Positions 3,581 to 18,900 of a DNA stretch of 27,110 bases are shown here, one piece after another. This stretch comes from a virus: positions 1 to 27,110 of IMG/VR virus record IMGVR_UViG_3300033981_000744, one strand, 5' to 3'. The notes beneath the pieces were generated by a model, which saw nothing but the letters and a program-made list of their open reading frames with translations, searched no databases and was not told the DNA's origin. Position 1 is the stretch's first letter; each line of letters begins with the position of its first letter. A program made the position numbers and the translations under genes.

Positions 3581-3679
3581 GAAGTCTTACACACTAGCAC
3601 TCGCACCCACATAAAGAGCCATAATGTTTATAATCTGCCCACAATTTTTGGGGTCGCACATGTGTGTGGGCGGGCAAGC

Positions 3680-3910: not shown

Positions 3911-3977
3911 GTTTGTTTGTCGTTGCCGTTCGGTAACGATTACCTAGTCATGCTACGGCATGGGAGAGTGAGTGAGT

Positions 3978-4112: not shown

Positions 4113-4138
4113 GTTTTGCCCGTTTCTCCTTGTGGGCA

Positions 4139-4182
4139 GGGTAGCGCTGGTGCGCTTGTTGAGGTTCAATTCCTCACTATCC
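4139..4182 (+). ncRNA. tRNA T-arm-like structure without anticodon arm
   Basis: TGAGG (4160-4164), TTCAATT (4165-4171) and CCTCA (4172-4176) form a canonical tRNA T arm: 5-bp stem, 7-base TTCRANY loop, GG-TTC...CC context. CTATCC (4177-4182) pairs with GGGTAG (4139-4144) as a 6-bp acceptor-like stem with one G-T pair. Between them GCGC-TGGT-GCGC (4144-4155) forms a small hairpin that shares one base. There is no D/anticodon arm combination, so it is not a normal tRNA. It may be a tRNA remnant or a tRNA-like RNA. Confidence 0.35.
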
Positions 4183-4207
4183 GCAATACGGTAGCATGTA
4201 TGTCCTC

Positions 4208-4226
4208 GGACGTATGTGTTGAAGTA
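4208..4226 (+). promoter_or_regulatory. GGACGTATGTGTTGAAGTA motif upstream of 4314
   Basis: This is an exact copy of the 19-bp consensus, 106 bases before the next start codon. A hairpin, TGTACG-TGAA-CGTACA (4269-4284), lies between motif and gene. Its placement upstream of a gene, rather than within one, supports a regulatory role. Confidence 0.5.
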
Positions 4227-4313
4227 GAATATTGAATGGTGGTTGTGGCATGGTGCTACGATATTAGATGTACGTGAACGTACAGCCGTTCCCTAGAGTG
4301 GAAGGACACTTTA

Positions 4314-4565
4314 ATGGCTAAGAAATCAACAAAGACAGCAACACCAACAATCGTAGGTCGCTTTGCGAAGATTGACAAGGATTGGGCTGTTGCGTTTTCT
4401 GCAAGTACCCCAATCAAGGTTGGTACGATTGTTACGGTTATGACCGCTGACAAGCGTGAGAAGCAAGTTCGCACCAATTCTGAAGGTGTTGTGTTGTTTG
4501 ATGTGAAGTCGGGTACGGTCATGAATGAGATTTTCTACACGTTTGACCGTGTGGCAAGCAAGTAA
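4314..4565 (+). CDS. Small hypothetical protein, 83 aa
   Basis: GAAGGA precedes ATG 4314. The product starts with a Lys/Thr-rich tail (MAKKSTKTATP), followed by alternating beta-prone segments (TIVGRFAKIDKDWAVAFS, GTIVTVMTADKREKQVRT, GVVLFDVKSGTVMNEIFYTF). That pattern suggests a compact beta-barrel or OB-like fold. It stands alone, with its own copy of the 19-bp motif and a leader hairpin upstream and a structured non-coding stretch downstream. It is probably an early gene. No family is recognised and no enzymatic residues are apparent. Confidence 0.65.
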   Translation: MAKKSTKTATPTIVGRFAKIDKDWAVAFSASTPIKVGTIVTVMTADKREKQVRTNSEGVVLFDVKSGTVMNEIFYTFDRVASK

Positions 4566-4799
4566 AACCTAAAGGGGTTTATGGGTTCGGGCATGTGCCG
4601 AGTTTGTGGGGTTCATAACCTTGCCGAACCGCTAGCGTGTGTGGTAGTATCATGCACGTGGGAGATAGTGTCTCCGCAAGGTTAGTCAGTAGGGTTAGTT
4701 TCCTATAATCTGATTATGTTGTGAATCACTGCGGGTAGCGGGCTATAATACACCCCCGCTACCCGTAAAAGGATACATTCATTATATGAAAGGACAATT
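4566..4799 (+). other. Structured non-coding stretch, candidate ncRNA or leader
   Basis: No gene is seen. Potential structures follow one another: AAACC/GGTTT at 4565-4580 (weak terminator-like), GGTTCGG (4584-4590) with CCGAACC (4624-4630) enclosing GGTT-CAT-AACC (4610-4620), GGAGA-TAGTG-TCTCC (4661-4675), and an 11-bp perfect inverted repeat at 4732-4765. Two TATAAT boxes lie at 4704-4709 and 4744-4749. The density of stems suggests a regulatory RNA or the leader of the small genes at 4800-5089. Confidence 0.4.
4732..4765 (+). promoter_or_regulatory. 11-bp inverted repeat with TATAAT in its loop
   Basis: CGGGTAGCGGG (4732-4742) and CCCGCTACCCG (4755-4765) are exact reverse complements around a 12-base loop containing TATAAT (4744-4749). 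TTGTGA at 4719-4724 is a possible -35 with a long 19-base spacer. A dyad spanning a -10 box would suit repression by a dimeric regulator. The first downstream gene starts at 4800. Confidence 0.45.
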
Positions 4800-4946
4800 A
4801 TGAATCCATTAAAGAAAATGGCACGTGTAAAGTGTTACAAACTTAATCGTTGGTTAGGTGATTCAATTCCCGTAGCGTTATGGCATGCGATGTTTCGTAG
4901 ACATTGGGATATTGATTTGCTTGAGATGAATGATTGGTGGTTATAA
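4800..4946 (+). CDS. Small hypothetical protein, 48 aa
   Basis: AAAGGA (4789-4794) lies 5 bases before ATG 4800. The product is basic and aromatic (MARVKCYKLNRWLGDSIPVA, then WHAMFRRHWDIDLLEMNDWW) with five Trp in 48 residues. Its stop overlaps the next start by one base (TAATG), so the two small genes are coupled. No family is recognised. Being short, basic and Trp-rich, it may be an early host-interacting peptide, which is speculative. Confidence 0.55.
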   Translation: MNPLKKMARVKCYKLNRWLGDSIPVALWHAMFRRHWDIDLLEMNDWWL

Positions 4947-5089
4947 TGTTTAAGGTTAGAGATTTGTTGGGTTATGCGTTGGATATTGTTTGCCGTTTAA
5001 CGTGTCACCGTTGGTGTCACGTTATAGGTAAATGGTCGTATGATTTATTAGACCAGCCAACAAACCAGCGTGTTAATGAACATTTCTAG
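4946..5089 (+). CDS. Small hypothetical protein, 47 aa
   Basis: ATG 4946 overlaps the preceding stop (TAATG). The product has a Cys/His cluster (CRLTCHRWCHVIGKW) that might bind a metal, followed by a polar helix (SYDLLDQPTNQRVNEHF). It resembles the preceding protein in size, basic character and the LG-containing N-terminal half, so the two may be diverged duplicates. It ends just before another 19-bp motif copy. No family is recognised. Confidence 0.5.
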   Translation: MFKVRDLLGYALDIVCRLTCHRWCHVIGKWSYDLLDQPTNQRVNEHF

Positions 5090-5101
5090 GTACACGGACG
5101 T

Positions 5102-5120
5102 GGACGTGCGTGTTGAAGTA
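5102..5120 (+). promoter_or_regulatory. GGACGT...GTGTTGAAGTA motif upstream of the AAA+ gene
   Basis: The copy GGACGTGCGTGTTGAAGTA has one additional GGACGT directly in front (from 5097) and lies 92 bases before ATG 5194. A small GCCC-TAGTC-GGGC stem follows at 5161-5173. It is placed like the other copies, upstream of an early gene. Confidence 0.5.
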
Positions 5121-5193
5121 ATAGATTTCGGTTGGCAATTCCGTCAGCCGATTAAACAAAAGCCCTAGTCGGGCAGAAAGAAAGGGTAGTGTT

Positions 5194-6480
5194 ATGGCAG
5201 GGAAGGCTATGAATATTGTTCGTGTTGATTGCACGGAAAGAAAAGCGTATGTTTTATTGGCTAGTGGAAAAGAATATCCATACGAAATTAGGTGGTTGGA
5301 CAAAAACACGCTAATTGTTATGTATAAACGTGCTTTTGGATTGACTTGGGTTGGTAAACCGATGGCGAAAACGAAAGATGAGGTTCTTGCGACAGTATTG
5401 CAAGCGTGCAACGATTGTGTTGCTCGTGGTGTAACGATGTTGCATGTTACTCAGCCAGTTCCGCCAGTTATTCCTCAGCCGTCACAACCTTCGTTTGTGC
5501 CGTCTGTGCCGACTGGTGATAGGGTTGCTAACGCTGTTCGTGACGTGATTCAGGACGCTCTGCGGTCTGTTGGCGTAGACGAAGATGCGGTGCGCAAGTT
5601 GATTGAGTCAGCATTAACGGAAGAACGTTCATACGTTAGGGAGTTGTTACGTGATGTTCGTCCGTTGGTTACTAACGTGGTTTTGCCGACTGGTGAAACT
5701 CGTCCCGTGACTGGTTTGACTCATGAGATATTCCCTAAGGTTCTTCGTGCGGTTTCTTGCGGTGAACATGTGTGGATGACTGGTAGCGCTGGTGTTGGCA
5801 AATCTAAGATTGCCCGTCAGGTTGCGGAGTCGCTCGGTGTTGCATTTAGTGCAGAGCCGTTCAATTCGCAGTCATCTAAAGCGGATATCAAAGGCTACAA
5901 GGCTATTAGCGATAACCTGTATCAGTCTACGGGGTTTCGTGACCGTTATGAACATGGTGGCGTGTTCTTGATGGACGAAATTGACGCTAGTAATCCGAAT
6001 ATTTTGACCGTGTTGAACGATGCGTTATCTAACGATAGCATGTCGTTTCCTGACGGTATGATTAAGCGTCACCCACAGTTTGTTGCGATTGCTGCAGCGA
6101 ACACGTGGGGTAATGGTGCTACTGCAGAATATGTTGGTCGTGCCCCGATTGATGGTGCTACGATTGACCGTTTCACGATGATGCACGTTAAGATTGATGA
6201 ACGCCTTGAGACTGAGTTGGTGCGTGGTACGGGTTTGAATATGGAACATGGTTCAACGTGGTTGAATATTGTGCGTACTGCACGCCGTAACGTTGATACT
6301 CATGGTCTGAAGGTGATTGTGTCGCCTCGTGCTAGTGTTGGTGGTGCTAAGTTGCTTGCTGGTGGGTTCACTTGGCAGGACGCTATTGACATGCGTTTGC
6401 TTAAAGGTGTCAAACCTGATATCGTTAGCAAGGTTATGGAATCGGTTATCGTACCCAAAGGTTCGCCAGTAGAAGTGTAA
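5194..6480 (+). CDS. CobS/MoxR-like AAA+ ATPase
   Basis: This 428-residue protein has Walker A GSAGVGKS (197-204), Walker B VFLMDEID (257-264), a sensor-1-like AAANT (300-304) and a DRF arginine-finger-like segment near 325. This is the arrangement of the MoxR/CobS class of AAA+ ATPases, which remodel proteins or insert cofactors and usually work with a VWA-domain partner. Residues 1-80 form a separate small domain, joined by a Pro-rich linker (86-106) and a helical stretch. AGAAAGGG precedes ATG 5194. The next gene (6577) encodes a plausible VWA-like partner. The substrate is unknown. Confidence 0.85.
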   Translation: MAGKAMNIVRVDCTERKAYVLLASGKEYPYEIRWLDKNTLIVMYKRAFGLTWVGKPMAKTKDEVLATVLQACNDCVARGVTMLHVTQPVPPVIPQPSQPSFVPSVPTGDRVANAVRDVIQDALRSVGVDEDAVRKLIESALTEERSYVRELLRDVRPLVTNVVLPTGETRPVTGLTHEIFPKVLRAVSCGEHVWMTGSAGVGKSKIARQVAESLGVAFSAEPFNSQSSKADIKGYKAISDNLYQSTGFRDRYEHGGVFLMDEIDASNPNILTVLNDALSNDSMSFPDGMIKRHPQFVAIAAANTWGNGATAEYVGRAPIDGATIDRFTMMHVKIDERLETELVRGTGLNMEHGSTWLNIVRTARRNVDTHGLKVIVSPRASVGGAKLLAGGFTWQDAIDMRLLKGVKPDIVSKVMESVIVPKGSPVEV

Positions 6481-6519
6481 CGTTCGTGACTACTAGTTCA
6501 CGTTCGTATCCTTCCCTGC

Positions 6520-6550
6520 GGACGTGGACTAGTATGTTAAATTATTAGGG
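6520..6550 (+). promoter_or_regulatory. Diverged GGACGT-TGTTGAAGTA motif upstream of 6577
   Basis: GGACGTGGAC is followed by TAGTATGTTAAATTATTAGGG, aligning with the copy at 5096-5125 (GGACGTGGAC then TGTTGAAGTAAT). It is the only notable element between the AAA+ gene and its neighbour. TTCCCT (6512-6517) and AGGGAA (6547-6552) flank it as an inverted repeat. Confidence 0.4.
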
Positions 6551-6576
6551 AAACAACAACTACGATTGGAGATATT

Positions 6577-7431
6577 ATGAGACAGTTTATACATGATTAT
6601 GTTAGTCCGTCAGGTACAGTTAAGACTGGCGTTTGGGTTGAAGAATATGATACACTGGCAGATTTGTTGGTGGACGCTAAAAGCAACAAGAAACGCAAGT
6701 CGTCTGATAAACGTGATAGACCTGATTGGCGTGGGTCTGATAGTTTGGACGAGGCTTGCGATTTGGGTACACGTGGTTGGCATGATATACGTCCTGAGGT
6801 TGATAAGTTGATTAACTCGTTGGATAACATCATCAGCGCAACGTTTGGTAACTTGTTTGAGACCAAGTTCAATATTACTGGCGAGTCAGGCGATATTGAC
6901 CGTTATCTTATGGGTGACCCTGAGTGTATGATTGATTATGTTGATGTGCCACAAACACGCATGGGGCGTGTTGTGCGATTACTGGTCAATGGTACTGTCA
7001 ATAGCGGTGTTTCAGCAGAGACAATCAAGCAACGTGGTGCGATGATATGTTCATTGGTTGATATCATTAATCGTTTGGGTGTCGGTGTTGAGGTTTATAG
7101 CGAGATTGCAACTTCTAGTAGCAACAAATATCATAGTATGCTCACGAAATTGCATGATTCGCAACAGTTGTTGGACATTGATAATTTGATGTTTGCAATT
7201 GCTCACCCGTCTATGCTTAGACGTATCTCGTTTTCTAACATGGAGATGTCTAAGTGGGAAGAAGCGAAGAAAATTATTGGTGGTAGTTACGGTTCAGCGT
7301 CTAATTGCAAAATGAAATCGCATGTTAATGCGGATATTGTAATTGATAACTTTGAGTCAGGCACTGGTGATTTTGAGGAAGATGGTATGAAGTTCATTAT
7401 GTCTACGATTACAGGATTGGGGCTGGTATGA
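6577..7431 (+). CDS. VWA-like partner of the AAA+ ATPase (DUF7192-like)
   Basis: The 284-residue product contains GDIDRYLMGDPECMIDYVDV (about 105-125), then a strand (RVVRLLVNGTVNSG), a helix (ETIKQRGAMICSLVDIINR) and a strand (GVGVEVYSEI). This pattern matches a Rossmann-like VWA domain with a degenerate metal site: TVNSG stands where DxSxS would be. I recall this as the DUF7192-type family found beside CobS-like ATPases in phages; the label needs checking. GGAG precedes ATG 6577. Following the AAA+ gene, it fits a MoxR-VWA pair that would remodel a protein target. The N-terminal 60 residues are Lys/Asp-rich and flexible. Confidence 0.65.
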   Translation: MRQFIHDYVSPSGTVKTGVWVEEYDTLADLLVDAKSNKKRKSSDKRDRPDWRGSDSLDEACDLGTRGWHDIRPEVDKLINSLDNIISATFGNLFETKFNITGESGDIDRYLMGDPECMIDYVDVPQTRMGRVVRLLVNGTVNSGVSAETIKQRGAMICSLVDIINRLGVGVEVYSEIATSSSNKYHSMLTKLHDSQQLLDIDNLMFAIAHPSMLRRISFSNMEMSKWEEAKKIIGGSYGSASNCKMKSHVNADIVIDNFESGTGDFEEDGMKFIMSTITGLGLV

Positions 7432-7571
7432 TAGAATATTGGTGGTATCGTATAGCGTATTGGTTAGAGAATGATACGCCTAGTAAACGTTTGTTTGCAA
7501 AAGCGTATCAAGTGTTGGTTGCGTTATGTGTTATAAATATAATAATCAAACTACTTATGAAAGGGTGGTAA
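7428..7571 (+). CDS. Single-span membrane microprotein, 47 aa
   Basis: ATG 7428 overlaps the preceding stop (ATGA). The product begins with an aromatic amphipathic stretch (MIEYWWYRIAYWLEN). After a Lys/Arg-containing hinge comes a hydrophobic segment of about 16 residues (YQVLVALCVINIIIKLL), followed by MKGW. One short membrane helix is likely. The family is not recognised. Small membrane proteins in early phage regions often affect host envelope or exclusion functions; here that is only a possibility. Confidence 0.55.
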   Translation: MIEYWWYRIAYWLENDTPSKRLFAKAYQVLVALCVINIIIKLLMKGW

Positions 7572-7575
7572 TGTA

Positions 7576-8190
7576 ATGAGTACAGTATCGGCAGTGTTAT
7601 TAAAGTGTGGTTCGGGTGTTGAACCTGAACCCGTTGTAATTAATGGGTTAGAGTCAATTCAGTCGTTGGTTGGTGGCAATATTGAGGCTGTGCGTGTTTT
7701 TGCACAGAAACGTGACACTAATGAACCGTTTGAGTTGGTTGGTTATTGCGATGATGAAGGGCGAATCAAGGATTCGGAAATGAATTGGCTTGCCAGTGCG
7801 TTGTTCCGTCAAGAGATTCGTGGTAACGTTGTTGTTGTTACTGACGCTGGTGACGGTGAGGACGGCGATGTTCCCGATACGTTTGTCAAGTGGTTGATGA
7901 GCGGATTTTTGCGACGTGTAGCCGAATCCTATAATGAAGCCAGTTTCATTGCGGAAGTAATGCAGTTCGCTGTGCAAAACAATTTAGTTCCTGAGGACGA
8001 AATTATGGAAGTAATGGATTCTTTCGGTGAAGATATTGCAAGAGGTGAACAAACAGAAGAAACGATTCACAAAATGAATACGTTATTGGAAAGAATATTG
8101 AAAGCGGTTCAAGATTATAATGCGGAAGAAGATGGGGTTGAGTTGGTTGGTGAGATTGAAGATTGGCTGAAAAAAGAAACGGAGAAATAA
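7576..8190 (+). CDS. DUF3846-like protein, 204 aa
   Basis: Residues 1-100 match the pattern of DUF3846: an N-terminal strand, then SIQSLVGGNIEAVRVFA, GYCDDEGRIKDSEMNWLAS and IRGNVVVVTDAGDGEDGD. That family is common in phages and mobile elements and has no firm function. The C-terminal half is acidic and helical (EDEIMEVMDSFGEDIARGEQ), unlike typical short DUF3846 proteins, and may be a fused domain. GAAAGGGTGG precedes ATG 7576. The stop overlaps the next start (TAATG). The strong acidity could suit DNA mimicry or protein binding, which is speculative. Confidence 0.7.
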   Translation: MSTVSAVLLKCGSGVEPEPVVINGLESIQSLVGGNIEAVRVFAQKRDTNEPFELVGYCDDEGRIKDSEMNWLASALFRQEIRGNVVVVTDAGDGEDGDVPDTFVKWLMSGFLRRVAESYNEASFIAEVMQFAVQNNLVPEDEIMEVMDSFGEDIARGEQTEETIHKMNTLLERILKAVQDYNAEEDGVELVGEIEDWLKKETEK

Positions 8191-8360
8191 TGAAAGCGCC
8201 AGTTGAACGCAAGTTATATCCGAAAGGTTATTATGAATGTTCGTTGTGTGGGCATGGTGTGGAAATCCATGTCCGCATGACAGACAAACCTATGTGTACC
8301 AAGCATGGGATTATGCAATTATCTAAGAAACCTAACGGTTTCGGAAAGGAATCAGAATGA
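8190..8360 (+). CDS. Small zinc-ribbon-like protein, 56 aa
   Basis: I choose ATG 8190 because GGAG lies 5 bases upstream and it overlaps the preceding stop (TAATG). The longer frame from 8163 would overlap far more. The product has CSLC then MCTKH (Cx2C...Cx2H-like spacing), suggesting one zinc-binding site in a 56-residue basic protein. The end overlaps the next start by ATGA. The family is unknown. Such mini zinc ribbons in phages can bind nucleic acid or host polymerase. Confidence 0.6.
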   Translation: MKAPVERKLYPKGYYECSLCGHGVEIHVRMTDKPMCTKHGIMQLSKKPNGFGKESE

Positions 8361-8566
8361 ATCTTTATCGTGGTACGTTCAGTATTTCGTTTGATGTTTA
8401 CGCCAAAGACTCAGATAGTGCAGTAGATTTGTTGTATGAACAGTTAGATAGTTCTATAACACACGGCATTAGCGCTGCGGCGTTTGGTTTACACGATGAA
8501 ATAGAAATGATAAGTAAAAATATAGGTGGATTTGTTATATCACAACCAAAAAAAGGAGATAAATAA
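8357..8566 (+). CDS. Small hypothetical protein, 69 aa
   Basis: ATG 8357 overlaps the previous stop (ATGA) with GGAAAGGAA upstream. The sequence reads like a small alpha/beta fold: strand (YRGTFSISFDVYAKD), helix (SDSAVDLLYEQLD), then an acidic helix and a beta end (GGFVISQPKKGDK). The stop overlaps the next gene (TAATG), with AAAGGAGATAA providing that gene's ribosome site. No family is recognised. It is part of a tightly coupled run of small early genes. Confidence 0.55.
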   Translation: MNLYRGTFSISFDVYAKDSDSAVDLLYEQLDSSITHGISAAAFGLHDEIEMISKNIGGFVISQPKKGDK

Positions 8567-8772
8567 TGAGTACAATTATATGGTTAGGTGAAGATATTAA
8601 AGGTTATCGTCCTGATTGGACGGACGACCAGTGTGATTATGTTATGGACGAAATTGGTACACGGTTATCAGAAGCGTGCATTGAATTTGGGCATGATATA
8701 ATGGAAGGATTAATTCAAGAATTTGAGGCAGAAAACCCGACAGATTGGAAAGACGAAGTAAATGACGATTGA
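8566..8772 (+). CDS. Small acidic protein, 68 aa
   Basis: ATG 8566 follows AAAGGAG. The product is acidic (many Asp/Glu, ending NPTDWKDEVNDD) and mostly helical after a short strand (STIIWLGEDIKGY). It overlaps its neighbour at 8762 by 11 bases. The family is not recognised. Small acidic phage proteins are often inhibitors or DNA mimics, but nothing in the sequence proves this here. Confidence 0.5.
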   Translation: MSTIIWLGEDIKGYRPDWTDDQCDYVMDEIGTRLSEACIEFGHDIMEGLIQEFEAENPTDWKDEVNDD

Positions 8773-9373
8773 ACAATGCGGTGTAACAGAACACGAAGAA
8801 TCGTGTTTATGTGACGTTCGCCCTGCCAAGTCAGTTATGGTGTCTAAAGACGCTGTGTTTGACATGTGGCAGGGTGAACGAATAGCAGAAATCTTAGGTT
8901 ATGTTAAAGGTCACGAATGGACTAATGACACAACTCTAGAGTATTTAGAAACATTATTGTATGTTCATGACCTGTGGGCGGAGTATGGCGGAATTTATTA
9001 TGCCAATGAATCCGACATCGTAGCCTTACGGTTTCCTGAATCTTACACTAATTTGCATAAATGGAAACTGATTCGTGACAGCGTAATGGCTGCCGCACAT
9101 CAACACCCAACGCTGCACATTATAGATATATTAAAACGGCTTAACGTTTCGTTAGAACAGTTTATCTGTGCCGTTAGTGTCAATAAACATAAACATGTTA
9201 TGACCGAAGAACAGTTTCGGAACTTTAGCACACTTATGATTGACACCGAAGGAAAAAGTTATGCTGGTATTGCCCGTTTGTTCCAAACAGGCAAAACTAC
9301 TATGACTTATTGGAAAAAACTATTCAGAGTTAGCAGAGACATGAAGAAGTCAAACAACAGAAAGGTATACTAG
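8762..9373 (+). CDS. Helix-turn-helix protein, 203 aa
   Basis: A C-terminal segment, GKSYAGIARLFQTGKTTMTY followed by WKKLFRV (about residues 162-190), has the form of a helix-turn-helix of the resolvase/homeodomain-like kind. A second HTH-like region may lie at LHIIDILKRLNVSLEQFICA (about 117-137). The N-terminus has a Cys cluster (CGVTEHEESCLC). It may be a DNA-binding regulator of the early genes. The start overlaps the preceding gene by 11 bases, with GGAAAG upstream. The specific family is unknown. Base composition is closer to neutral than in the G+T-rich genes before it. Confidence 0.6.
   Translation: MTIEQCGVTEHEESCLCDVRPAKSVMVSKDAVFDMWQGERIAEILGYVKGHEWTNDTTLEYLETLLYVHDLWAEYGGIYYANESDIVALRFPESYTNLHKWKLIRDSVMAAAHQHPTLHIIDILKRLNVSLEQFICAVSVNKHKHVMTEEQFRNFSTLMIDTEGKSYAGIARLFQTGKTTMTYWKKLFRVSRDMKKSNNRKVY
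9366..9371 (+). promoter_or_regulatory. Candidate -10 box for a leaderless transcript
   Basis: TATACT ends 6 bases before the A of ATG 9378, and no Shine-Dalgarno is present there. That spacing puts the expected transcription start at or next to the start codon, as in the leaderless genes common in actinobacteria. No convincing -35 is visible. This is an inference from position. Confidence 0.35.
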
Positions 9374-9377
9374 AACC

Positions 9378-9533
9378 ATGAGAGAAAATGAAACAACAGA
9401 ACAAATGAACGATAGAATACGTAAACATAAACAAAAAGTTTACAACGAAATCAAAAATGACCCTAGTGAAAAAGCCCAAAAATTATGGGCTAAGTTAAAG
9501 CAAGAGTTTCCTAATTTAGATAGCCAATCATGA
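9378..9533 (+). CDS. Small helical protein, 51 aa
   Basis: ATG 9378 opens a 51-codon frame. The product is highly charged and helical (NDRIRKHKQKVYNEIKNDPS, then EKAQKLWAKLKQEF). There is no ribosome site, but a TATACT box lies 6 bases upstream. Its stop overlaps the next start by ATGA. No family is recognised. It might act as a small regulator or adaptor. Confidence 0.5.
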   Translation: MRENETTEQMNDRIRKHKQKVYNEIKNDPSEKAQKLWAKLKQEFPNLDSQS

Positions 9534-9592
9534 AGATTGTCTATGCTGTAATTCTATTAACAGTTATATATATTCTATTACTTAATATCTAA
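9530..9592 (+). CDS. Predicted 20-residue membrane microprotein
   Basis: ATG 9530 overlaps the preceding stop (ATGA). The 20 codons encode Met-Lys followed almost wholly by Ile, Leu, Val and aromatics, enough for one membrane helix. The stop at 9590-9592 sits directly before the GGAG of the nuclease gene. The overlap and clean hydrophobicity argue for a real gene, but at this length chance cannot be excluded. Confidence 0.4.
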   Translation: MKIVYAVILLTVIYILLLNI

Positions 9593-9602
9593 AGGAGAAA
9601 TG

Positions 9603-10406
9603 ATGCGGGTAGATGAACTCAATAAAGTCGTTTATGTCAGACAGTCTTGGCTTGGTGACATGGCTATTTGCCCTGAACGTGCTAGACTTGGTATAGTACG
9701 TCCAGAGTTTAGAACGGGTTCAGATGCCACCATTATAGGTACAGCAGTTCATACAGGTATTGAGTCCGTACTTAATGGTACGTCCTCAAACTTTCTTGAC
9801 ATGTTAGATGTAGTTGCCAATGATTACGAGTCGCTGGAAACAACAAATTATAAAAAGTCTAACATTAATCAGGAAGAAATTCCGCAATATTTAGAATCAA
9901 TGTCTAAAGCGTTTTATGATTCAATTTTACCTAAAGTAAAACTGGGTGGAAAAACTGAACACCCATTTAAAGTACCGTTGGGCATTGACGTTAATGGTTA
10001 TAGCGTTTGGTTAGAAGGCACAATGGATTACGTAGACGAAGATGGTGTTGTGTGGGATTGGAAAACAGCAAAAAAATCCTACAGCCAGTTTAGTAAACAA
10101 AAGTCCGCTATTCAGCCAACAGTTTATACTTATGCGGTATCTCACGATACCGACATTGAACCAAAATTTAATTATGGTGTAATGATTCGGCAACTAGACC
10201 CGAAAGCACAAATTGTGCCAATTTATCGGGGTGCTGAACATTGGAATTGGTTAAAACATCATGTTCGTGGGGCGGTAAACGTAGCCCTAAGAACTGGTGT
10301 AGATAATCAATGGATAACGAATGATGAAAGTGCGTTATGTTCAGAACAGTGGTGTTCATTTTGGAGTGTTTGTAAAGGCGCTTTTAATTGCCACGACGCT
10401 GAATAA
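9603..10406 (+). CDS. Cas4/RecB-like PD-(D/E)XK nuclease with Fe-S cysteines
   Basis: Numbering from the alternative start at 9600, the protein has Cys24, His51 in GTAVHTGIE, Asp143 (LEGTMDYV), Asp153-x-Lys155 (VWDWKTAKK) and a QxxxY motif (QPTVY, 172-176). A C-terminal Cys cluster (247, 252, 258, 264) follows. One N-terminal and several C-terminal cysteines around a RecB nuclease core are typical of Cas4 and AddB-type Fe-S exonucleases. It would resect DNA ends during recombination or host DNA breakdown. GGAG ends 5 bases before ATG 9603, better spacing than for ATG 9600. No CRISPR is nearby, so the role is phage DNA metabolism. Confidence 0.85.
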   Translation: MRVDELNKVVYVRQSWLGDMAICPERARLGIVRPEFRTGSDATIIGTAVHTGIESVLNGTSSNFLDMLDVVANDYESLETTNYKKSNINQEEIPQYLESMSKAFYDSILPKVKLGGKTEHPFKVPLGIDVNGYSVWLEGTMDYVDEDGVVWDWKTAKKSYSQFSKQKSAIQPTVYTYAVSHDTDIEPKFNYGVMIRQLDPKAQIVPIYRGAEHWNWLKHHVRGAVNVALRTGVDNQWITNDESALCSEQWCSFWSVCKGAFNCHDAE

Positions 10407-10420
10407 GGATATGCTATAGT
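10388..10420 (+). promoter_or_regulatory. Candidate sigma70-type promoter
   Basis: TTGCCA (10388-10393) and TATGCT (10410-10415) are 16 bases apart, with an overlapping TATAGT (10415-10420). The site lies at the end of the nuclease gene, ahead of a 47-base gap and the gene at 10454. Matches are moderate and the call rests on motif and position. Confidence 0.3.
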
Positions 10421-10453
10421 TAGTTCACAACAACAAATAGATAGGAGATAGTT

Positions 10454-10900
10454 ATTACTACAGTAAACAGAGACCAATCAATTGTTATTCAGGTTGCAGG
10501 TAAAATCGCTGCCGATATAACACCCAAGACAGATGATGTTCAAATGAATATTGCCAATTTTGTCTTGGCATTAGACGCAACGGTAGACGCATTGTTTACC
10601 AAAATGGGTATGACAGGCGAAGCACCAACGCAAGAAGAAATGTTGGTTCAAGCGTTTCCAAATAGCCAAGTAGTAACACAATCAACACAACCAGCGTTTC
10701 AACCAGCGCAAGGCGGTCAAGTTCGTATCAAAGGTACGCAACATGGTCCAATTCCTGCATGGTTGCACACTGAATGTGCAAAGAAGGGCGTTACCGAAGT
10801 TTGGGATAACCGTGACGGTTTAGCGGTCAACCCTAAGCGCCCTTGGTTCAAATCCACTACAGGTACAGAAGCGTTTTGGGAACCACGAGTTAGGCGGTAA
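10454..10900 (+). CDS. Likely ssDNA/replication-associated protein with possible ATT start
   Basis: The first ATG is at 10544, but the frame is open upstream. A strong AGGAG (10443-10447) sits 6 bases before an in-frame ATT at 10454 that would give MTTVNRDQSIVIQVAGKIAA, a well-formed N-terminus. No comparable ribosome site precedes 10544. I therefore annotate 148 residues from ATT with caution. The C-terminal part (PIPAWLHTECAKKGVTEVWD, then NRDGLAVNPKRPWFKST) resembles a segment I associate with small phage DNA-binding or replication proteins. Placement between the exonuclease and helicase supports that. The exact function is unproven. Confidence 0.65.
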   Translation: MTTVNRDQSIVIQVAGKIAADITPKTDDVQMNIANFVLALDATVDALFTKMGMTGEAPTQEEMLVQAFPNSQVVTQSTQPAFQPAQGGQVRIKGTQHGPIPAWLHTECAKKGVTEVWDNRDGLAVNPKRPWFKSTTGTEAFWEPRVRR

Positions 10901-10903
10901 CCT

Positions 10904-11980
10904 GTGACCGACCCCGATTATGTGGGTCGTTGGGCAAAGTTGGGGCGTGGGGAAATTCTTCCCACGCCCGACTTGTCTACCGCACCTTTAGCGTATTACA
11001 CACCATTACACAAAGCCGCAGATGATTATGTTCACTGGGCGCAATCACCACAAGAAAGAATCTATCTAGGTTTTCATGAGATAGATGCACAAATGCGTGG
11101 CATTGCACCGTCAGAAATGTGTATTATAAACGGTTATAGCCATAGCGGTAAAACGTTGGCGTTGCTACAGATTCTTGTAGCCAACAAAGACAAACGTGTA
11201 ATCTATTTCTGTCCCGATGAGCCACGCACTTTAACGTTAATTAAGTTGGCTTGTGTTACTCACGGCATTGACGCAAACGTTTTAGAAACTCGCATTGCTG
11301 AAAACGACAGACAATCCATTGACTTATTGCGTAATACGGCATTAGAACATTTTCCGAACCTAGCAGTGTTTGACCAAACAGTGTCTCTCATTGAAATGGA
11401 ACGTGCTTTGTCTGAATCAATAGACGTATTGGGTGACCCACAACTAATCGTTGTGGACTATTTGGATTTGATTACAGGCGGTGGAGAAGATGTTCCGTCT
11501 AAAGCCAACAGCATTAAAGCGTTCGGTAAACGTCATAATATTCCGTTAATTGTTTTGCACCAGTCCAGTCGTACTGCAGGTGCTGATGGACGCAAAATGA
11601 CTATCAGTTCAGGTGCTTATGGTGGTGAACAACAAGCAACACACATTGTTGGTGTACGCCGTAAACGATTTGAGATAGAAGGACATATTCGTGACTTGCA
11701 AGAAAAATTAGATAAAGCATCAAACACTGAACGTATTATGTCCAAAATAGAAGAACTGCAATATAATTTACGTATCCACATGGATACGGTTACGTTGAAC
11801 TTGGTTAAGTGTAAACGTCCTGCGTCCGTCCTGTTAGACGATATGGACTTCTTGATTGAAGCAGGAACTGGTCGGTTGAAAAGGTTGGAGAACGGGGTGT
11901 TACCATACCGACTTGATGACAATATTGTGCAATCCGAAACAGAACAATTAACTATGCAAGAAATATTAACCGATTGGTAA
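10904..11980 (+). CDS. DnaB-type replicative helicase (RecA core)
   Basis: The 358-residue product has Walker A GYSHSGKT (77-84), Walker B LIVVDYLDLI (181-190, Asp185) and IPLIVLHQSSR (213-223). The last is the H4-like Gln-containing motif of DnaB-family helicases. The N-terminal primase-binding domain of cellular DnaB is absent or reduced to about 50 residues, as in many phage helicases. A charged insertion near 258-290 looks coiled-coil. The start is GTG 10904, three bases after the preceding stop, with weak AGGCGG upstream. It would unwind the replication fork together with the primase encoded immediately downstream. Confidence 0.85.
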   Translation: MTDPDYVGRWAKLGRGEILPTPDLSTAPLAYYTPLHKAADDYVHWAQSPQERIYLGFHEIDAQMRGIAPSEMCIINGYSHSGKTLALLQILVANKDKRVIYFCPDEPRTLTLIKLACVTHGIDANVLETRIAENDRQSIDLLRNTALEHFPNLAVFDQTVSLIEMERALSESIDVLGDPQLIVVDYLDLITGGGEDVPSKANSIKAFGKRHNIPLIVLHQSSRTAGADGRKMTISSGAYGGEQQATHIVGVRRKRFEIEGHIRDLQEKLDKASNTERIMSKIEELQYNLRIHMDTVTLNLVKCKRPASVLLDDMDFLIEAGTGRLKRLENGVLPYRLDDNIVQSETEQLTMQEILTDW

Positions 11981-11989
11981 AGGGGGTAT

Positions 11990-12904
11990 ATGATAGACGA
12001 CAAACTGTTAGATAACTTTATAAAACTATTTCGTGGTCGTGGTGACGTGTACGGCATGGACAGTGGGGGCTGTGCCAAGTTACCGCTTAATGTTGGCACA
12101 TTTGAACGACACTTAAACGGGTCAGAACGTATCGGCGTATATCCGATTGTTCCAATCAACGGTCAAGCATCCGTAGTGTGGGGCTGTTCAGACTTTGATT
12201 TAGGCTTAGAACAATCTTTACATCAAGCACGACAACTACATGACGCATTACAGGCAGGTGGTGTCACATCATGGATAGAACGTTCACGTTCCAAAGGTTA
12301 CCATGTTTGGGTGTTTGCCACAGAACCAGTGTCCGCTGAGATTATGCGTAACATGTTATTGGCTGCGCACCAAGTTGCCGAAGTGCCAGCAACAGAAGTG
12401 AACCCTAAACAAACCACATTACGACACGGACAGTACGGCAACTATGTTCGTTTACCTTACCCTAATTACGCTGACGAAACAACACACAACCAGCGTGTTC
12501 TTAACCCTAACGACTTTCAATCAGTTCTACATATTTGCGACTTTGTTTCTATGGCTATCGCCAACCGCACTACACCAGCCGACATCGCACGGCTTGCTGC
12601 ACATTATAAACCCATAATCAAACCCACACCTGGGATTATGCCCACAGAATATGATGCCACATTAGACGAGGCTATGCAAGTTCTGTCTCCGCTAGGTAAA
12701 GTCATTTGGCGTGACGGACCACTACCGTCCAAAGACCGTTCATCAACCCTAGCCAAACTCGGTTACGAGTGTGTCAAAACAGGACTCAACCCTAGTCAAA
12801 CCAAAATCATTCTCAAAACCGCTGACAAGCGGTGGGGTAAATATCATTTACGTGCTAACGGCGAACTAGAAATAGACAAACTAGTTATACGAGTACACTC
12901 ATGA
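11990..12904 (+). CDS. Archaeo-eukaryotic primase, TOTE type
   Basis: The 304-residue protein shows the AEP catalytic pattern: SDFDLG with Asp68 and Asp70, then SRSKGYHVWVF with the S-x-H-type triad (His105), followed by EVNPKQTT and GNYVRLPYP. These motifs match the TOTE-conflict type primase family used by many phages instead of DnaG. It would lay down primers on DNA unwound by the adjacent helicase. The C-terminal third (about 215-304) looks like a helical, PriCT-like accessory domain. AAAGGGGG precedes ATG 11990. It overlaps the next gene by 4 bases. Confidence 0.8.
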   Translation: MIDDKLLDNFIKLFRGRGDVYGMDSGGCAKLPLNVGTFERHLNGSERIGVYPIVPINGQASVVWGCSDFDLGLEQSLHQARQLHDALQAGGVTSWIERSRSKGYHVWVFATEPVSAEIMRNMLLAAHQVAEVPATEVNPKQTTLRHGQYGNYVRLPYPNYADETTHNQRVLNPNDFQSVLHICDFVSMAIANRTTPADIARLAAHYKPIIKPTPGIMPTEYDATLDEAMQVLSPLGKVIWRDGPLPSKDRSSTLAKLGYECVKTGLNPSQTKIILKTADKRWGKYHLRANGELEIDKLVIRVHS

Positions 12905-13485
12905 CAACAATACTTGCAATACAAGGCGACGATTATTGCGCCATAGGTTCAGACAGTCAATGGTCAGATGATTATGGTCGCATAGGCAAAATGACGCAAG
13001 CAAAAGTTGTTGCAGTCGGCAAATACTTTATAGGTGTAGCAGGTGACACACGAGGCGCAAACATTATTCAACACGTATTTAACCCACCACAACTACCACC
13101 AAAACTTAATGGCAACAAACTCACAAAATTTATGGTCAGCCAATTTATACCAACCTATAGAGAATGTTTAGAATCAAACGGTTTAGGACTACCACAATAC
13201 GAATCTAATCCCGCAGAAGCGTCCATAGACTCTTTGGTGTGCGCTAATGGTGTCATCTATCAAATAGACGCAGACTACAGTACAGAAATGGACGCAAACG
13301 GTTTGTATGCTATTGGTTCAGGTGCGCATTACGGGTTGGGTGCTATGCAAATGTATGCCAGCAACAAACGCATAACTCAACCATCAGCGAAACGTGTTCT
13401 GTTAAAATCATTATCTATTAGCGCCAGATTTGACAGCAACTCTGGCGCACCATTCCATACCTTTATACAGACTAGGAAAACATGA
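12901..13485 (+). CDS. Proteasome beta/HslV-like Ntn-hydrolase
   Basis: The 194-residue product begins Met-Thr-Thr-Ile-Leu-Ala. Thr2 would be the N-terminal nucleophile after Met removal, as in HslV (MTTIV). In mature numbering Asp17 is in GSDS, a Lys at 34 (MTQAKV) corresponds to the HslV catalytic Lys33 with a one-residue shift, and FIGVAGDT parallels IAGFAGGT. YAIGSGAHYGLGAM parallels the conserved IAIGSGGPYA segment. Length is close to HslV (about 175). It is embedded by 4-base overlaps between primase and RusA resolvase. Assembly, partner ATPase and substrate are unknown; other Ntn hydrolases of this fold are possible. Confidence 0.8.
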   Translation: MTTILAIQGDDYCAIGSDSQWSDDYGRIGKMTQAKVVAVGKYFIGVAGDTRGANIIQHVFNPPQLPPKLNGNKLTKFMVSQFIPTYRECLESNGLGLPQYESNPAEASIDSLVCANGVIYQIDADYSTEMDANGLYAIGSGAHYGLGAMQMYASNKRITQPSAKRVLLKSLSISARFDSNSGAPFHTFIQTRKT

Positions 13486-13817
13486 AAAAACATAGCCAAT
13501 TTATAGAAACAAAACCTATCCCTAAAGGGCGACCCCGTATGACAAGGTATGGGCGTGTTTATACTCCTGCTCGCACTTTAGAATCTGAAGATGTTATACG
13601 CACGGCGTACACTGGTCCAAAATATGAAGGTGACGTAATGTTGGTTTGTACATTTTCCAAAGATGGTATTTCTATCAATTTACAAAACATTGCGCAAAAC
13701 GACAGCAAACTTCGTGGCGACCTAGATAATTACATAAAGTTATTGATGGACGGATTAAACGGTGTTGCGTGGGCAGATGACAAGCAAGTGACACTTATAG
13801 TTGGGAGTAAAGAATGA
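13482..13817 (+). CDS. rusA: RusA-family Holliday junction resolvase
   Basis: The 111-residue protein has the RusA hallmarks: IPKGRPRMT near the N-terminus, GRVYTPART, then RGDLDNYIKLLMDGLNGVAW with Asp80 and Asp82, and ADDKQV with a further catalytic Asp at 99/100. RusA dimers resolve four-way DNA junctions formed during phage recombination and replication before packaging. It overlaps both neighbours by 4 bases (ATGA), giving tight coupling with the HslV-like gene and a second nuclease-like gene. The length is slightly below the usual 120 residues because the C-terminus is short. Confidence 0.88.
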   Translation: MKKHSQFIETKPIPKGRPRMTRYGRVYTPARTLESEDVIRTAYTGPKYEGDVMLVCTFSKDGISINLQNIAQNDSKLRGDLDNYIKLLMDGLNGVAWADDKQVTLIVGSKE

Positions 13818-14275
13818 GTAAGAAATCAGATTATGATATAGGTCCAATGCCTCACGATTGGCAAACAGATTTATCGTTCGGTCATAAAGGCGAAAAACTT
13901 GTATCCGAATTTTTAGGAAAAATTAGTAGTGGTGCGTTTGAAGTTAAAACAGACCGATACCGTAACGGCAGAATGGTGTTAGAAATGGTGCAGAATCCTC
14001 GCCGCCGTCTTGACGACAACGGCGAACCATTTTGGCAACCATCAGGTTTAGCGGTGACAAAAGCGGAATGGTGGGTATACGTGTATGCTTTGGACGGTGC
14101 GTTTGTTATTGTGTCTGTGCCACGATTAAAACGTTATTTGAAAGCAAACAAAGACAGATTTAATCCAAAAGCGTACCACAAATTTGCGTGGCGTAGTGGC
14201 AACCCCAGCATGGGATATTTGTTACAGCCCGAAGATGTTATGGACATGATGATAAACGAAAAATATGACTCCTGA
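13814..14275 (+). CDS. PD-(D/E)XK-like nuclease, 153 aa
   Basis: The segment GHKGEKLVSEFLGK (23-36), followed by FEVKTDRY (42-49) and MVLEM (54-58), fits a restriction-endonuclease-like core: a helix with Glu, then ExK-type strand Glu43-Val-Lys45. Two Trp-rich strands follow (AEWWVYVYALDGAFVIVSVP). It may cut recombination intermediates or host DNA. It overlaps RusA by 4 bases and the sigma-like gene by 11 bases. The fold assignment rests on short motifs only, so a non-catalytic relative is possible. Confidence 0.6.
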   Translation: MSKKSDYDIGPMPHDWQTDLSFGHKGEKLVSEFLGKISSGAFEVKTDRYRNGRMVLEMVQNPRRRLDDNGEPFWQPSGLAVTKAEWWVYVYALDGAFVIVSVPRLKRYLKANKDRFNPKAYHKFAWRSGNPSMGYLLQPEDVMDMMINEKYDS

Positions 14276-14612
14276 AAACATACCTAATCAGAAAAAATAT
14301 CATTCAAACGAAATAGAATGGTTAATGCAACCCAATGCTACGGCAAACGATTTTGATGACGACATCGTGTTGTATGACGCAATAGCAGAAACTGTCGCAT
14401 CTATGGATGCGACTGACCAGCAAATGATATACTTGATTTATTATGAACGCAAAACATTTCAAGAAGCCGCCCGTGAAGTAGGTATATCAGCAAAATCACA
14501 TGCTTGGCGTAAAACGAAATCAGCAGTAAATAAACTAGAAATATTGTTAAAACAGAATCCAGTTATCATGGAAATATTAAACAGCAAATACGGCATAATA
14601 GGAGACCAATGA
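14265..14612 (+). CDS. Sigma70 region 4-like transcription factor
   Basis: The 115-residue product contains LYDAIAETVASMDATDQQMI, followed by YLIYYERKTFQEAAREVGIS. This is the helix arrangement of sigma70 region 4 ('L...l..Lp...r.v..L.y.eg.s..EIA..lgiS'), then a recognition-helix-like stretch with Arg and Lys. No region 2 is present, so it is not a full sigma factor. Such phage proteins can bind promoter -35 DNA or divert host RNA polymerase to middle or late promoters. It sits in the replication block, where a temporal switch would fit. Promoter targets are unknown. Confidence 0.65.
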   Translation: MTPENIPNQKKYHSNEIEWLMQPNATANDFDDDIVLYDAIAETVASMDATDQQMIYLIYYERKTFQEAAREVGISAKSHAWRKTKSAVNKLEILLKQNPVIMEILNSKYGIIGDQ

Positions 14613-15112
14613 AACCAACATATAACACATTTAATAAAGCGGCTGATGCAGCATTAACAAAACTAAGAGAAGAAGCATCAACTACGTTACCTGACCCCAA
14701 AATGTTTAAACCAATAGAAACTTATATAAGTAAGTGGATAAAAAGTTTGCAACTTGGTGACGCAGAAGAATCCGACACAGAACTAGCCACATTAGTTTTG
14801 GAACGTGCGGGCGTACAAGCATTACAATGGCTACTAGATAACCACCCACCGTTTGAACATAGTGAAATGGTGCAATTGTTGTGTCGTAAACAACACGACT
14901 ATGGACACAACAACATCACAAACTTTGGAATTATTGGCGTAGCAATTCGCATATGTGATAAAATTGCTCGCATAGACAACCTAAGTAAACGCAATCAACC
15001 AACCAACGAATCATTGATAGATTCATATATTGATATTGTGGGTTATGCTATGATATCAATTATGTTAAACGAAGATTCGTTTAAGTTGCCATTGAAAGGA
15101 GATAAACGATAA
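14609..15112 (+). CDS. DUF1599/Nmad1-like protein, 167 aa
   Basis: The C-terminal half has KQHDYGHNNITNFGIIGVAI, RICDKIARIDNLSK and ESLIDSYIDIVGYAMI. This is the all-helical pattern of DUF1599 (nucleotide modification associated domain 1), related to dUTPase/MazG-type helical folds and found in many phages. A role in nucleotide metabolism or base modification is suggested from the family; the substrate is unknown. The N-terminal 80 residues are less conserved-looking. ATG 14609 overlaps the previous stop (ATGA) with GGAG upstream. Confidence 0.7.
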   Translation: MKPTYNTFNKAADAALTKLREEASTTLPDPKMFKPIETYISKWIKSLQLGDAEESDTELATLVLERAGVQALQWLLDNHPPFEHSEMVQLLCRKQHDYGHNNITNFGIIGVAIRICDKIARIDNLSKRNQPTNESLIDSYIDIVGYAMISIMLNEDSFKLPLKGDKR

Positions 15113-15282
15113 TGGTTACAGTTCGCTGTAACAACTGCAAACATGTTTTTCAAAATGATGAGAAACGAACAATAGGCTGTTATTGTGATAGCGATGCCCC
15201 AACATGGATAGCAGTTGCACCTAGTGGTCGTGTTTTATCAATGTCCTATTCCAATTATGATATATTAGAGGAAACAAAATGA
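15112..15282 (+). CDS. Small zinc-ribbon-like protein, 56 aa
   Basis: ATG 15112 overlaps the previous stop (TAATG), with AAAGGAGATAA upstream. The product has CNNC near the start and CYC at residues 23-25, a plausible single zinc site, followed by a short beta region (TWIAVAPSGRVLSM). It ends with ATGA overlap onto the next gene. The family is not recognised. It is one of two small metal-binding candidates in the plus-strand block (the other starts at 8190). Confidence 0.6.
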   Translation: MVTVRCNNCKHVFQNDEKRTIGCYCDSDAPTWIAVAPSGRVLSMSYSNYDILEETK

Positions 15283-15509
15283 GTGAACAAACAGAATCAA
15301 AATACGGCAAAGAAGGAACACAATACTCAATAGGTGAAGATAAAATTTTCATCAACATGGAGTTCATAATCTCAACCCTAATGGGTGTAATCGTAGTGAT
15401 GCGAGACATCTTGGGAAAAGATTTTAAATCAGAAAACGGATTAGACATAGACCAAATCGTAGAAGGAATAGCCCAACAACTATATGACCAAATTACCCCA
15501 AACAACTAA
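15279..15509 (+). CDS. Small hypothetical protein, 76 aa
   Basis: ATG 15279 overlaps the previous stop, with GAGG upstream. After a polar N-terminus the product has a hydrophobic helix (FIISTLMGVIVVMRDILGKD) and an amphipathic C-terminal helix (DIDQIVEGIAQQLYDQI). It could associate with a membrane or form a helical bundle. No family is recognised. It overlaps the next small gene by 26 bases. Confidence 0.55.
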   Translation: MSEQTESKYGKEGTQYSIGEDKIFINMEFIISTLMGVIVVMRDILGKDFKSENGLDIDQIVEGIAQQLYDQITPNN

Positions 15510-15645
15510 CATAGATAAACTACGACACGAACTAGCCGTAATGAAAAAAGAACTAAAACGTTACGGGTCACCACAAACGTTTATAAACAAAGTAAACGAC
15601 CTAGAAGTAGCAATACGTAAACTGGAACACTTCCGTGACATCTGA
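15484..15645 (+). CDS. Small coiled-coil protein, 53 aa
   Basis: ATG 15484 opens a 53-codon frame in another register inside the end of the preceding gene. The product reads as two helices with heptad-like Leu/Ile spacing (IDKLRHELAVMKKELKRYG and INKVNDLEVAIRKLEHF) broken by a short turn, as in antiparallel coiled coils. Codon use is A+C-rich like its neighbours. No strong ribosome site is present, so translation may be coupled. The family is not recognised. Confidence 0.5.
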   Translation: MTKLPQTTNIDKLRHELAVMKKELKRYGSPQTFINKVNDLEVAIRKLEHFRDI

Positions 15646-15922
15646 ACGACCCGACTGGGACCCCGAAGATTTAAACGAACTAATGTATCTATTTGACAAA
15701 GACGACATCAGCGAACTAGAAGGCGTATTTACAAGCATGATTAAAGACGACAGCGACGGATTCGTTGTAGAGTTCGTCATTTCTGTCCTTGCTGCACGAG
15801 AACTAGTTGAATTATATTTACGTGCGCAATCTGGCGATGAAATCGCCAAAAACAAAAGTTGGTTTGAATACTCTAAAATTATCGCAGAACTAACACAAGG
15901 ATTAAACCTGCACGACAATTAA
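15635..15922 (+). CDS. Small acidic protein, 95 aa
   Basis: The start is GTG 15635, overlapping the previous gene by 11 bases. The product is acidic and helical: RPDWDPEDLNELMYLFDKDD, then a hydrophobic helix (GFVVEFVISVLAARELVELY) and a polar end. It is the last rightward gene. Its stop TAA (15920-15922) overlaps the stop of the convergent giant gene on the other strand by two bases. The family is unknown. Confidence 0.6.
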   Translation: MTSERPDWDPEDLNELMYLFDKDDISELEGVFTSMIKDDSDGFVVEFVISVLAARELVELYLRAQSGDEIAKNKSWFEYSKIIAELTQGLNLHDN

Positions 15923-18900
15923 GGTTCTTCAGTTATTCCAATACCCTGTTCGTAACCGTATTGTTTTAATTGTTTAAGCAAATCTTCCACTTCTTTATTA
16001 CGCCGTTGCGCTTCCTGTTTTTGTTGCACAGGACCAATCTCACGAGCAGGTATACCAGCATAATTAAAAATACTGGACAACATACGTTCCTCTAATGCTT
16101 CTTTACCGCCAGTTGCACCACCAGTCAATCTGTTAATTTGCGCAATAATTGGGAAAACAGATTCAACAATATGGGTAACTCTTTCATCCATAACCCAATT
16201 ACCGTATTTGTCAGTAGTAATTTGACCATCGTTAACAAATCTGTTTAAAGCCTTAGCAATCAAAGTTTCGTATGGACCTCTAACTTCTTTTTGTTTCCCA
16301 TAGGCGTTAAAGTCTTGAACAAAAGTTCCAAACTTTTTACCCGCTATAAGTTCTGCTGGCAATCTAATTGGCAAACCAGTTTGACCCAACAATTGTTGTG
16401 GGTCAGCAAACCCTTCAAACATCGCCTTCATACGAATATGAGGCAAATCGGGTGTCAACACCCAATTAGCCAACCCATTACCCAAACCTAATGGTTCACG
16501 TTCGTTAATCCATTTAGGCATCATCAAGTTAGCGTTGACAGGCAGTTCTTCTTGAACTCTTTGATACTCATAATACGCTTTAGGGCGAGTTAATATTTGT
16601 GTCATTTGAAGCGGAATGTTTCGGGAAGTCCAAATCCAAAACGGAATAAACCGCTTTACGGTTTCATCCAACTTAGACAAATCGCTATAATCAAAATGTA
16701 CACGAGAAATACGTGCAACTGCCTCATCAAACGTATGCCCCTTGTTAAACGAATCTATTGCCATTGGCAAACGAACAGCACGTTCAACATAACTGTTTTT
16801 GTTTTGAAAAAAACCAATATATTTATCTGTCGTAACTTGAGCCAATCGCCCAATTGTCGGTGCAGCGAAATCATCATTAACACCATAACCAGTAGCCATA
16901 ACAACTTTAGTTGCCCACTCTGCTTTTGCCATTTCTTGTGGGTCTGTAATGCCTGCTCTTGCCATCCAGTTAGCAAAGTTTTTATTATTTAATCTTTTAC
17001 CAACAGTATCATTTTGCGCCGCCGCCCACTTTATGCCAGTACTAATAGCGTCATTAGTAACACCATCAGCATAATTCATAAACGTTGCAGACATGCCGTT
17101 ACGCACAAAGAAACCAATGCTAGCAGTAACCCAACGTTTCCAATATGCGTTCATTTTATCAAAGTTTCTTAAAAACGCACCATACTCGCCCGCATCACTT
17201 AACTTCTTTATAGCAGGCATCCACTGTTCTTTTGCTTCCTTTGGGATTTGCAATCCCAAACCAGCAAGTTCTTCCCAACCTTGTTCGGCAACATCAATAA
17301 ACTTTTGCCCACGAATACCCAACATTTTTGCTTGCGCATAAAAACTAAACGCTTGAGGAATCTCTGATTCAATTTTAGCCAACGCCAACTCATCGGCATG
17401 CAAAATTTTCGTTACACGGTCATAAGCCTCTTTAACTGCAGGTGAATCTTGCAATAACAAAGACGACTCAAGACTTTTCTCAACATGTTTAGACCAAGCC
17501 GCATTACTAGCAGCCGTAGAACCCTTAGGCGGTTTATTGGACAACAGCAACAAAAAGTCATTGACTTCTTGTTCCAACGCCGAACCAACCTCGTCAGTCC
17601 AAGTTTCCAAAACTTTAACCTCGTTTAACAACATAGGTAAACGTTGTTTATAATCTAAACGCAATGTTTGCAGTTCTTCTGGACCAAAAGTTTTTTCAAT
17701 TTCACGCAAAATATCTTGGTCAATTTTGCTATAAGCATTACTAAAAAAACTGTCAAGTGTTGCAAGTTTGTTAAGAATAACTGTTTTGGGAACAGATTTG
17801 CCACCAACTTGAACACTATCTGTGCTACGCAAATTCATTAAAGCCTTGAAAGCATTATCAACTTTAGTTGATTCCGCAATCTGCTCATCCAATTTTGCAC
17901 GTTCCGCTAACGTTTGCCCAACCTCAATACCGTTTTGTTGCAACAACTTCTTTACATCTGTCTTTGCTACATGGGTGGCTTCTAATGTTTCGTCCATAAT
18001 GGTTTTCATAAAACTATTATTTTCTAACAACTGCCAAGGCGAAGCAATAGAATCACCAACTTTAAACGCAGGTGTGTTGCTCGGCAACAACACCGCCCAC
18101 TCATTCAAAGAAGGTTCAAAGTCATCAAAAATGCGTGTTAAAGGCATTAAAGCACCTTTATAACCATTTGCGGCAGCATCGTCCACAACTCCACCAAACC
18201 ATTTATTTGCAACAACCTTACCAACACTTTCAGCATTATCAGGACTTAAAGACCCAGCAAGACGTTCTTGCATATCGGCAAACCATGTAAAGAAATCATT
18301 AAGTTCTTCATTAGACATTGGCAAAACATCGTCAGCGGTTTCTAAAAGTGTATCAACTTTAGTTTGCATATCATACATACCCATTAACCATTCCGCTTTT
18401 TCTGGATAAGCACGAATAAACTCTGGGTCTATAAAACCATTGTTAGCAAGCATATTGTCAACAACATCCATTGGCATCATATCAGGCACACCAACTTCAG
18501 CCCAAGCCCTGTTTAAATCATCAGCCCAAAACTCAGGATTAAGAAAATTTGCAAAAGTAGTTGGGTCACGCAAATCCAACAAATCTTGTTCAGGTATAGC
18601 ATGACCAACAACGGCATCTTTCATTTGCGCAAACGTACCAAATTCATTATCAATAGGTTTAGTTGTATAAAGTTGAAACGGAATAGGTTCGTCACTAAAA
18701 CCTGGTGGAAAACCATAAATCAAACCCTCAGTAGCATAAGACGCATTATCTTTAGCAACATTTATACGAGCCAACGCTTCTAACTCTGTTTCGTTCGCCA
18801 ATATTGCTTCGTCAATTACACGTGCTGCTTCAGGGTTGCCAGCAGGAATTTCGTCACGCAAATTAATTAAAGTGTCATGAGTTTTCTGACGGAAAACTTC

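Follow-up and report, generated by a model that had tools for sequence, protein, structure and literature searches.

The window, by which we mean the whole 27,110-nucleotide stretch of viral DNA analysed here, carries a gene for a proteasome-like N-terminal-nucleophile (Ntn) peptidase embedded in a replication operon (Table 1). The operon runs from a PD-(D/E)XK exonuclease through a gene for a 118-aa protein to a DnaB-like helicase, an AEP-type primase, the peptidase and RusA, and the replication genes including the peptidase lie on the + strand, with the structural genes on the - strand. Translation of the peptidase ORF gave the N-terminus MTTILAIQGDDYCAIGSDSQW, confirming the Met-Thr-Thr start that had originally been read from the DNA. 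The 4-base overlaps noted on both sides of the gene were also present as two ATGA junctions, the first formed by the peptidase start (12901) and the primase stop (12904) and the second by the RusA start (13482) and the peptidase stop (13485).

Table 1 Features of the window that bear on the peptidase and its possible partners
Feature	Coordinates	Strand	Remarks
CobS/MoxR-like AAA+ ATPase	5194..6480	+	No other AAA+ unfoldase-like candidate found
DUF7192 (PHROG 1909) protein	6577-7431		Downstream of the CobS/MoxR-like ATPase
PD-(D/E)XK exonuclease	9600..10406	+	Peptidase operon
DnaB-like replicative helicase	10904..11980	+	Peptidase operon
Archaeo-eukaryotic-type primase (AEP-TOTE)	11990..12904	+	4-base overlap with the peptidase start
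Proteasome-like Ntn peptidase gene (PHROG 1040)	12901..13485	+	194 aa, ATG start, TGA stop
Thr2 codon	12904..12906	+	Predicted N-terminal nucleophile once Met is gone; from alignments
Peptidase residues 93-109	13177..13227	+	Long low-confidence loop from helix 2 to the next strand; from model and alignment
RusA-like Holliday junction resolvase	13482..13817	+	4-base overlap with the peptidase stop

Positions 5000-20000 of the window had no nucleotide-level match among known phages, and no tRNA gene that might serve as a clue to the host was found in the window. Positions 3410-5193, which separate the left gene block from the AAA+ gene, hold few plausible genes on either strand and are a possible regulatory or early promoter region. 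On the - strand, positions 15919-21177 encode a 1752-aa virion-type protein with a weak PHROG match (phrog_19395), which may be an internal virion protein or an ejection protein.

The window peptidase belongs to the proteasome-like (N-terminal-nucleophile) family. Profile searches against proteasome and HslV families bore out the proposed kinship, with PHROG 1040 ('peptidase HslV family') matching the whole protein at E=9.6e-17. By itself the sequence scored 21.7 bits against the Pfam Proteasome model (PF00227), just under the cut-off of 22.4, and the model was matched by 31 of 32 relatives (best E 6e-10). Searches of the PDB with the single sequence and with a 32-sequence family profile both returned BPH first, HslV second and 20S beta subunits third, the profile finding BPH at E=9e-11. 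A single-chain AlphaFold2 model built on the 32-sequence alignment (pLDDT 89.4, pTM 0.86) likewise had BPH as its top PDB match (TM 0.77, E 4e-12), and the best 50 of its 1140 PDB matches at E<=0.001 were all BPH, HslV or 20S proteasome. The model contains the beta-sheet core and helices H1-H4 of the proteasome-like fold, with H1 at residues 50-58 and H2 at residues 71-92, and the residues that characterize the family (N-terminal Thr/Ser, Asp17, Lys33 and the oxyanion Gly47) are all represented. The PHROG match, the PDB profile match, the Pfam matches of relatives and the purifying selection described below confirm that the ORF is real beyond chance, and the enzyme class is well supported.

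Alignment with HslV and BPH placed Thr2 on Thr1, Asp18 on Asp17 and Lys35 on the Lys33 equivalent (Lys37 of Td-BPH), in agreement with the original reading that the latter two residues are kept. The same alignments assigned Gly48 to the oxyanion-hole Gly and Ser140 to Ser139 of Td-BPH; the latter falls within the YAIGSG segment (residues 136-141), which had also been recognized from the outset. The roles of these residues in proteasome-like peptidases have been described (PMC5777263, PMC8665760). Thr2, Asp18, Lys35, Gly48 and Asp178 did not vary among 32 sequences with identities as low as 31%, and every phage, AAH, PPH or BPH sequence sampled retained the Thr2/Asp18/Lys35 set. The dN/dS of the peptidase was 0.04-0.09, within the range of RusA, the primase and DnaB, and per-site synonymous change stood ~11- to 25-fold above amino-acid change. 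Taken together, the invariance of Thr2, Asp18, Lys35 and Gly48 across the 32 relatives and the low dN/dS argue that a working enzyme is being preserved, and the gene can be predicted to encode a functional peptidase kept by selection.

The original description of the product as a proteasome-beta/HslV-like peptidase held in so far as a phage replication operon does encode a proteasome-like Ntn-hydrolase whose catalytic set is intact, but it did not extend to strict HslV identity. HslV equivalog models gave 26.3 and 26.1 bits (E about 5e-6) against cut-offs of 137 and 157.75, BPH was closer in both sequence and fold, and no match to HslU (TIGR00390) exceeded its cut-off in 19 related records. 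The HslV of HslUV (ClpQ) has the fold and catalytic residues in common with the window peptidase, whereas E. coli HslV shows a gap opposite the BPH pore loop, a position at which the window peptidase carries its long loop 93-109. Assignment as a 20S proteasome beta subunit was also rejected (14.0 and 17.5 bits against bacterial/archaeal beta cut-offs of 191.9 and 224). BPH (bacterial/beta-proteobacterial proteasome homologue; PDB 5ovs/5ovt/5ovu), the best PDB match by sequence and by fold, shares the Thr1-Asp17-Lys-Gly-Ser set and the long pore loop. Identity to it is nevertheless 22%, a long branch separates the two, and the window peptidase is encoded in a phage replication operon; BPH is a tetradecameric double ring, whereas the window peptidase is known here from its sequence and a single-chain model.

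The phage proteasome homologues PPH (proteasome homologue of phages and their hosts) and AAH described by Fuchs, Alva and Lupas in 2021 (PMC8665760) were compared in the same way; CPH, the cyanobacterial proteasome homologue, occurs in phages as well. PPH is phage-borne and keeps Thr1/Asp17/Lys33, as does the window peptidase, but it is ~140 aa long and without helix H2 (PMC8665760), whereas H1 and H2 are both present in the 194-aa window protein, and PPH identity was rejected. AAH, which also occurs in phages, has Arg51, a PP motif at 62-63 and the helix after it in common with the window peptidase. In our AAH set, which consisted of rhizobial and Streptomyces plasmid homologues assigned to AAH by taxonomy, the rhizobial plasmid proteins were ~29% identical to the window peptidase; the AAH sampled start with MTC/MTV, replace the oxyanion Gly (Gly48 of the window peptidase) by Ser and read GCG where the window peptidase has GSG. 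The AAH-like rows formed a 100/99 clade that took in several phage proteins but not the window protein, and membership of AAH was rejected on this basis, although a joint clade of the window family and AAH was not rejected (p-AU 0.24). The BPH rows in the tree (n=2) stood apart on a long branch, and with long branches dropped a single group of clades A and B (described below) was neither supported nor rejected (p-AU 0.35). The AAH-like proteins of the rhizobial and Paraburkholderia plasmids L113, L115 and L122, annotated as hypothetical, show the same replacement of the oxyanion Gly by Ser and of GSG by GCG; these are large conjugative plasmids of legume-associated bacteria. We put forward only tentatively that the window family is a distinct phage-only group-I subfamily, outside HslV, BPH, AAH and PPH, that is fixed in the replication operon of one clade and would serve as an unfoldase-free chamber during DNA replication.

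Clade A comprises homologues 61-100% identical to the window peptidase, with full contigs of ~38 kb and a fixed gene order (AAA+/DUF7192/.../exonuclease/DnaB/primase/peptidase/RusA). Every clade A locus that covers the primase-peptidase-RusA segment had this order, interrupted in some by short extra genes, and the peptidase is a constant member of the replication operon in these ~38-kb relatives. Several members have one or two short genes, some nuclease-like, between primase and peptidase, suggesting that this gap is an exchange hotspot. The inserts (L016:9454-9987, L018:2368-2859, L054:7379-7801 and L058:7501-8004) are unrelated genes, and several contain E-V-K or E-V-E-V-K stretches reminiscent of PD-(D/E)XK nucleases. 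The related 42-kb podovirus MW202803 (L112) keeps the surrounding operon order and has an unrelated 140-aa ORF (15153-15575) between primase and RusA; the peptidase is therefore dispensable for that replication module.

Clade B homologues are 42-47% identical to the window peptidase and have neighbours that differ from those of clade A. WhiB, a possible mark of actinophages, was detected in 6 of the 11 clade B records searched and in none of the 14 from clade A. Homologues with 32-39% identity were found in Actinomycetia phage DSL-LC01 and in the Planktophila phages LanE43AprE7/F5 (PMC10202952; OX376640/OX376641; L027). The gene lies outside any primase-RusA slot in DSL-LC01, and in Planktophila phage E7 none of the window neighbours turned up next to it; both phages carry WhiB, unlike clade A. 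The OX376640/OX376641 records are unannotated yet encode a proteasome-like peptidase.

The suggestion that such an enzyme is unusual in a phage replication module had to be abandoned, as phage homologues have been published (PMC8665760) and are frequent. HslV without HslU has been noted in a Salmonella jumbo phage (PMC7823757), and the top match of our model among viral models, UniProt A0A6J7XBU4 from an uncultured Caudovirales phage (72% identical, TM 0.97), already bears the HslV name, transferred from HslV. Searching INPHARED with the window peptidase returned 15 phages, and searching it with a Microbacterium phage homologue returned 332 records, mostly Salmonella phages; the one inspected of these, SETP7, has the short PPH type. 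A first scan of IMG/VR found 24 loci with relatives, and a degenerate scan matched at least 600 stretches, of which at least 565 encode them. The literature gave no experimental characterization of PHROG 1040 or A0A6J7XBU4. Pattern scans of genome contigs, which used short seeds and are weak evidence, found no cellular homologues. PADLOC returned no defence or anti-defence match, and JSS1_004 was discarded as an anti-defence precedent because the paper proved unrelated. The window gene is best read as a well-preserved addition to the phage proteasome-like peptidases already known and not as a new kind of system.

We consider it reasonably probable that the gene product is a self-assembling, unfoldase-independent, BPH-like proteolytic chamber (a group-I proteasome-like peptidase) made in the replication phase. 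Methionine aminopeptidase readily processes Met-Thr, and the peptidase is without a propeptide; the host aminopeptidase would strip Met1 and expose Thr2 as the nucleophile, which Asp18 and Lys35 are predicted to activate, with Gly48 as the oxyanion hole. The subunits would probably form a closed chamber of two rings, as in BPH/HslV, and entry would probably be gated by the long inner pore loop and not by a dedicated HslU-type unfoldase. Loop 93-109, which coincides in position with the BPH pore loop, fits the unfoldase-free chamber proposed for BPH, for which no unfoldase is known and whose Thr1 binds epoxomicin (PMC5777263). Host or phage proteins that are unfolded, flexible or labile may enter the chamber and would be degraded or processed. 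Translation is probably coupled with that of the primase, helicase, exonuclease and RusA, which would place the action of the peptidase in the replication phase and not in capsid maturation; a maturation role is also disfavoured by the location of the peptidase among the + strand replication genes, with the structural genes on the - strand.

The failure to find a dedicated phage unfoldase in the HslU search of the 19 related records would also suit a peptidase that redirects host proteolysis, either by docking on an unfoldase of the host (Mpa/ARC, ClpX or ClpC) or by joining a host proteasome-like complex. Sister-lineage phages carry WhiB or infect Actinobacteria, many of which have a proteasome (PMC8665760). 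However, with WhiB missing from the 14 clade A records and no host docking motif identified in the peptidase, we regard recruitment of a host partner as unlikely.

It is quite unlikely, in our judgement, that the peptidase is one half of a phage AAA+ protease in which the CobS/MoxR-like ATPase, together with the DUF7192 protein, feeds it as HslU feeds HslV. This ATPase, the only candidate of its kind in the window, occupies the same early region in all 14 clade A records searched, and DSL-LC01 also has both proteins, with the only comparably strong ATPase match among the other peptidase carriers (E 4e-28). Against this, Salicola phage SCTP-2 gave a partial match (1e-11) and the other carriers outside clade A gave weak matches or none: no strong match was obtained in any of 11 clade B records, in Planktophila phage E7 or in Arthrobacter or Microbacterium phages. 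Moreover, 425 phage records carry a CobS-like ATPase and only 15 match the window peptidase, MW202803 encodes the ATPase and the DUF7192 protein without the peptidase, and the C-termini of the ATPases differ widely across lineages. No AAA+ partner was consistent across the family, and the CobS-like ATPase was rejected as a general partner, being absent from most other peptidase phages and present in hundreds without the peptidase; an ATPase-peptidase partnership specific to clade A may exist. The ATPase and DUF7192 genes form a constant pair in clade A, and proteins related to both recur in Mycobacterium, Gordonia and Staphylococcus phages without a peptidase match.

Connectase, a monomeric ligase with a proteasome-like fold (PMC8665760), and the inertness of BPH on standard, general substrates (PMC5777263) would be in keeping with a specific processing enzyme or a connectase-like protein ligase that acts on one phage or host target in place of bulk degradation. 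The window peptidase has both H1 and H2, which are missing in connectase, and is without the connectase-type insertion, and we consider such an activity highly improbable. Although another ORF fills the peptidase slot in MW202803, an inactive remnant or structural protein that kept the fold only is scarcely credible in the face of catalytic residues invariant over 32 diverged sequences and strong purifying selection.

Phage-borne proteasome-like peptidases are common, and the literature gave no assayed example. The homologues described here touch on the failure, stated in 2021 (PMC8665760), to find AAH in any Actinobacteria-specific phage, as related, non-AAH-type proteins are encoded by cultured Actinobacteria phages (Planktophila, Arthrobacter and Microbacterium). 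For the self-assembling chamber that we favour, clade A provides a clean test case, combining a small genome, a fixed gene position, invariant catalytic residues and strong purifying selection. It allows a direct test of whether a phage makes a proteolytic chamber of its own and whether that chamber needs an unfoldase.
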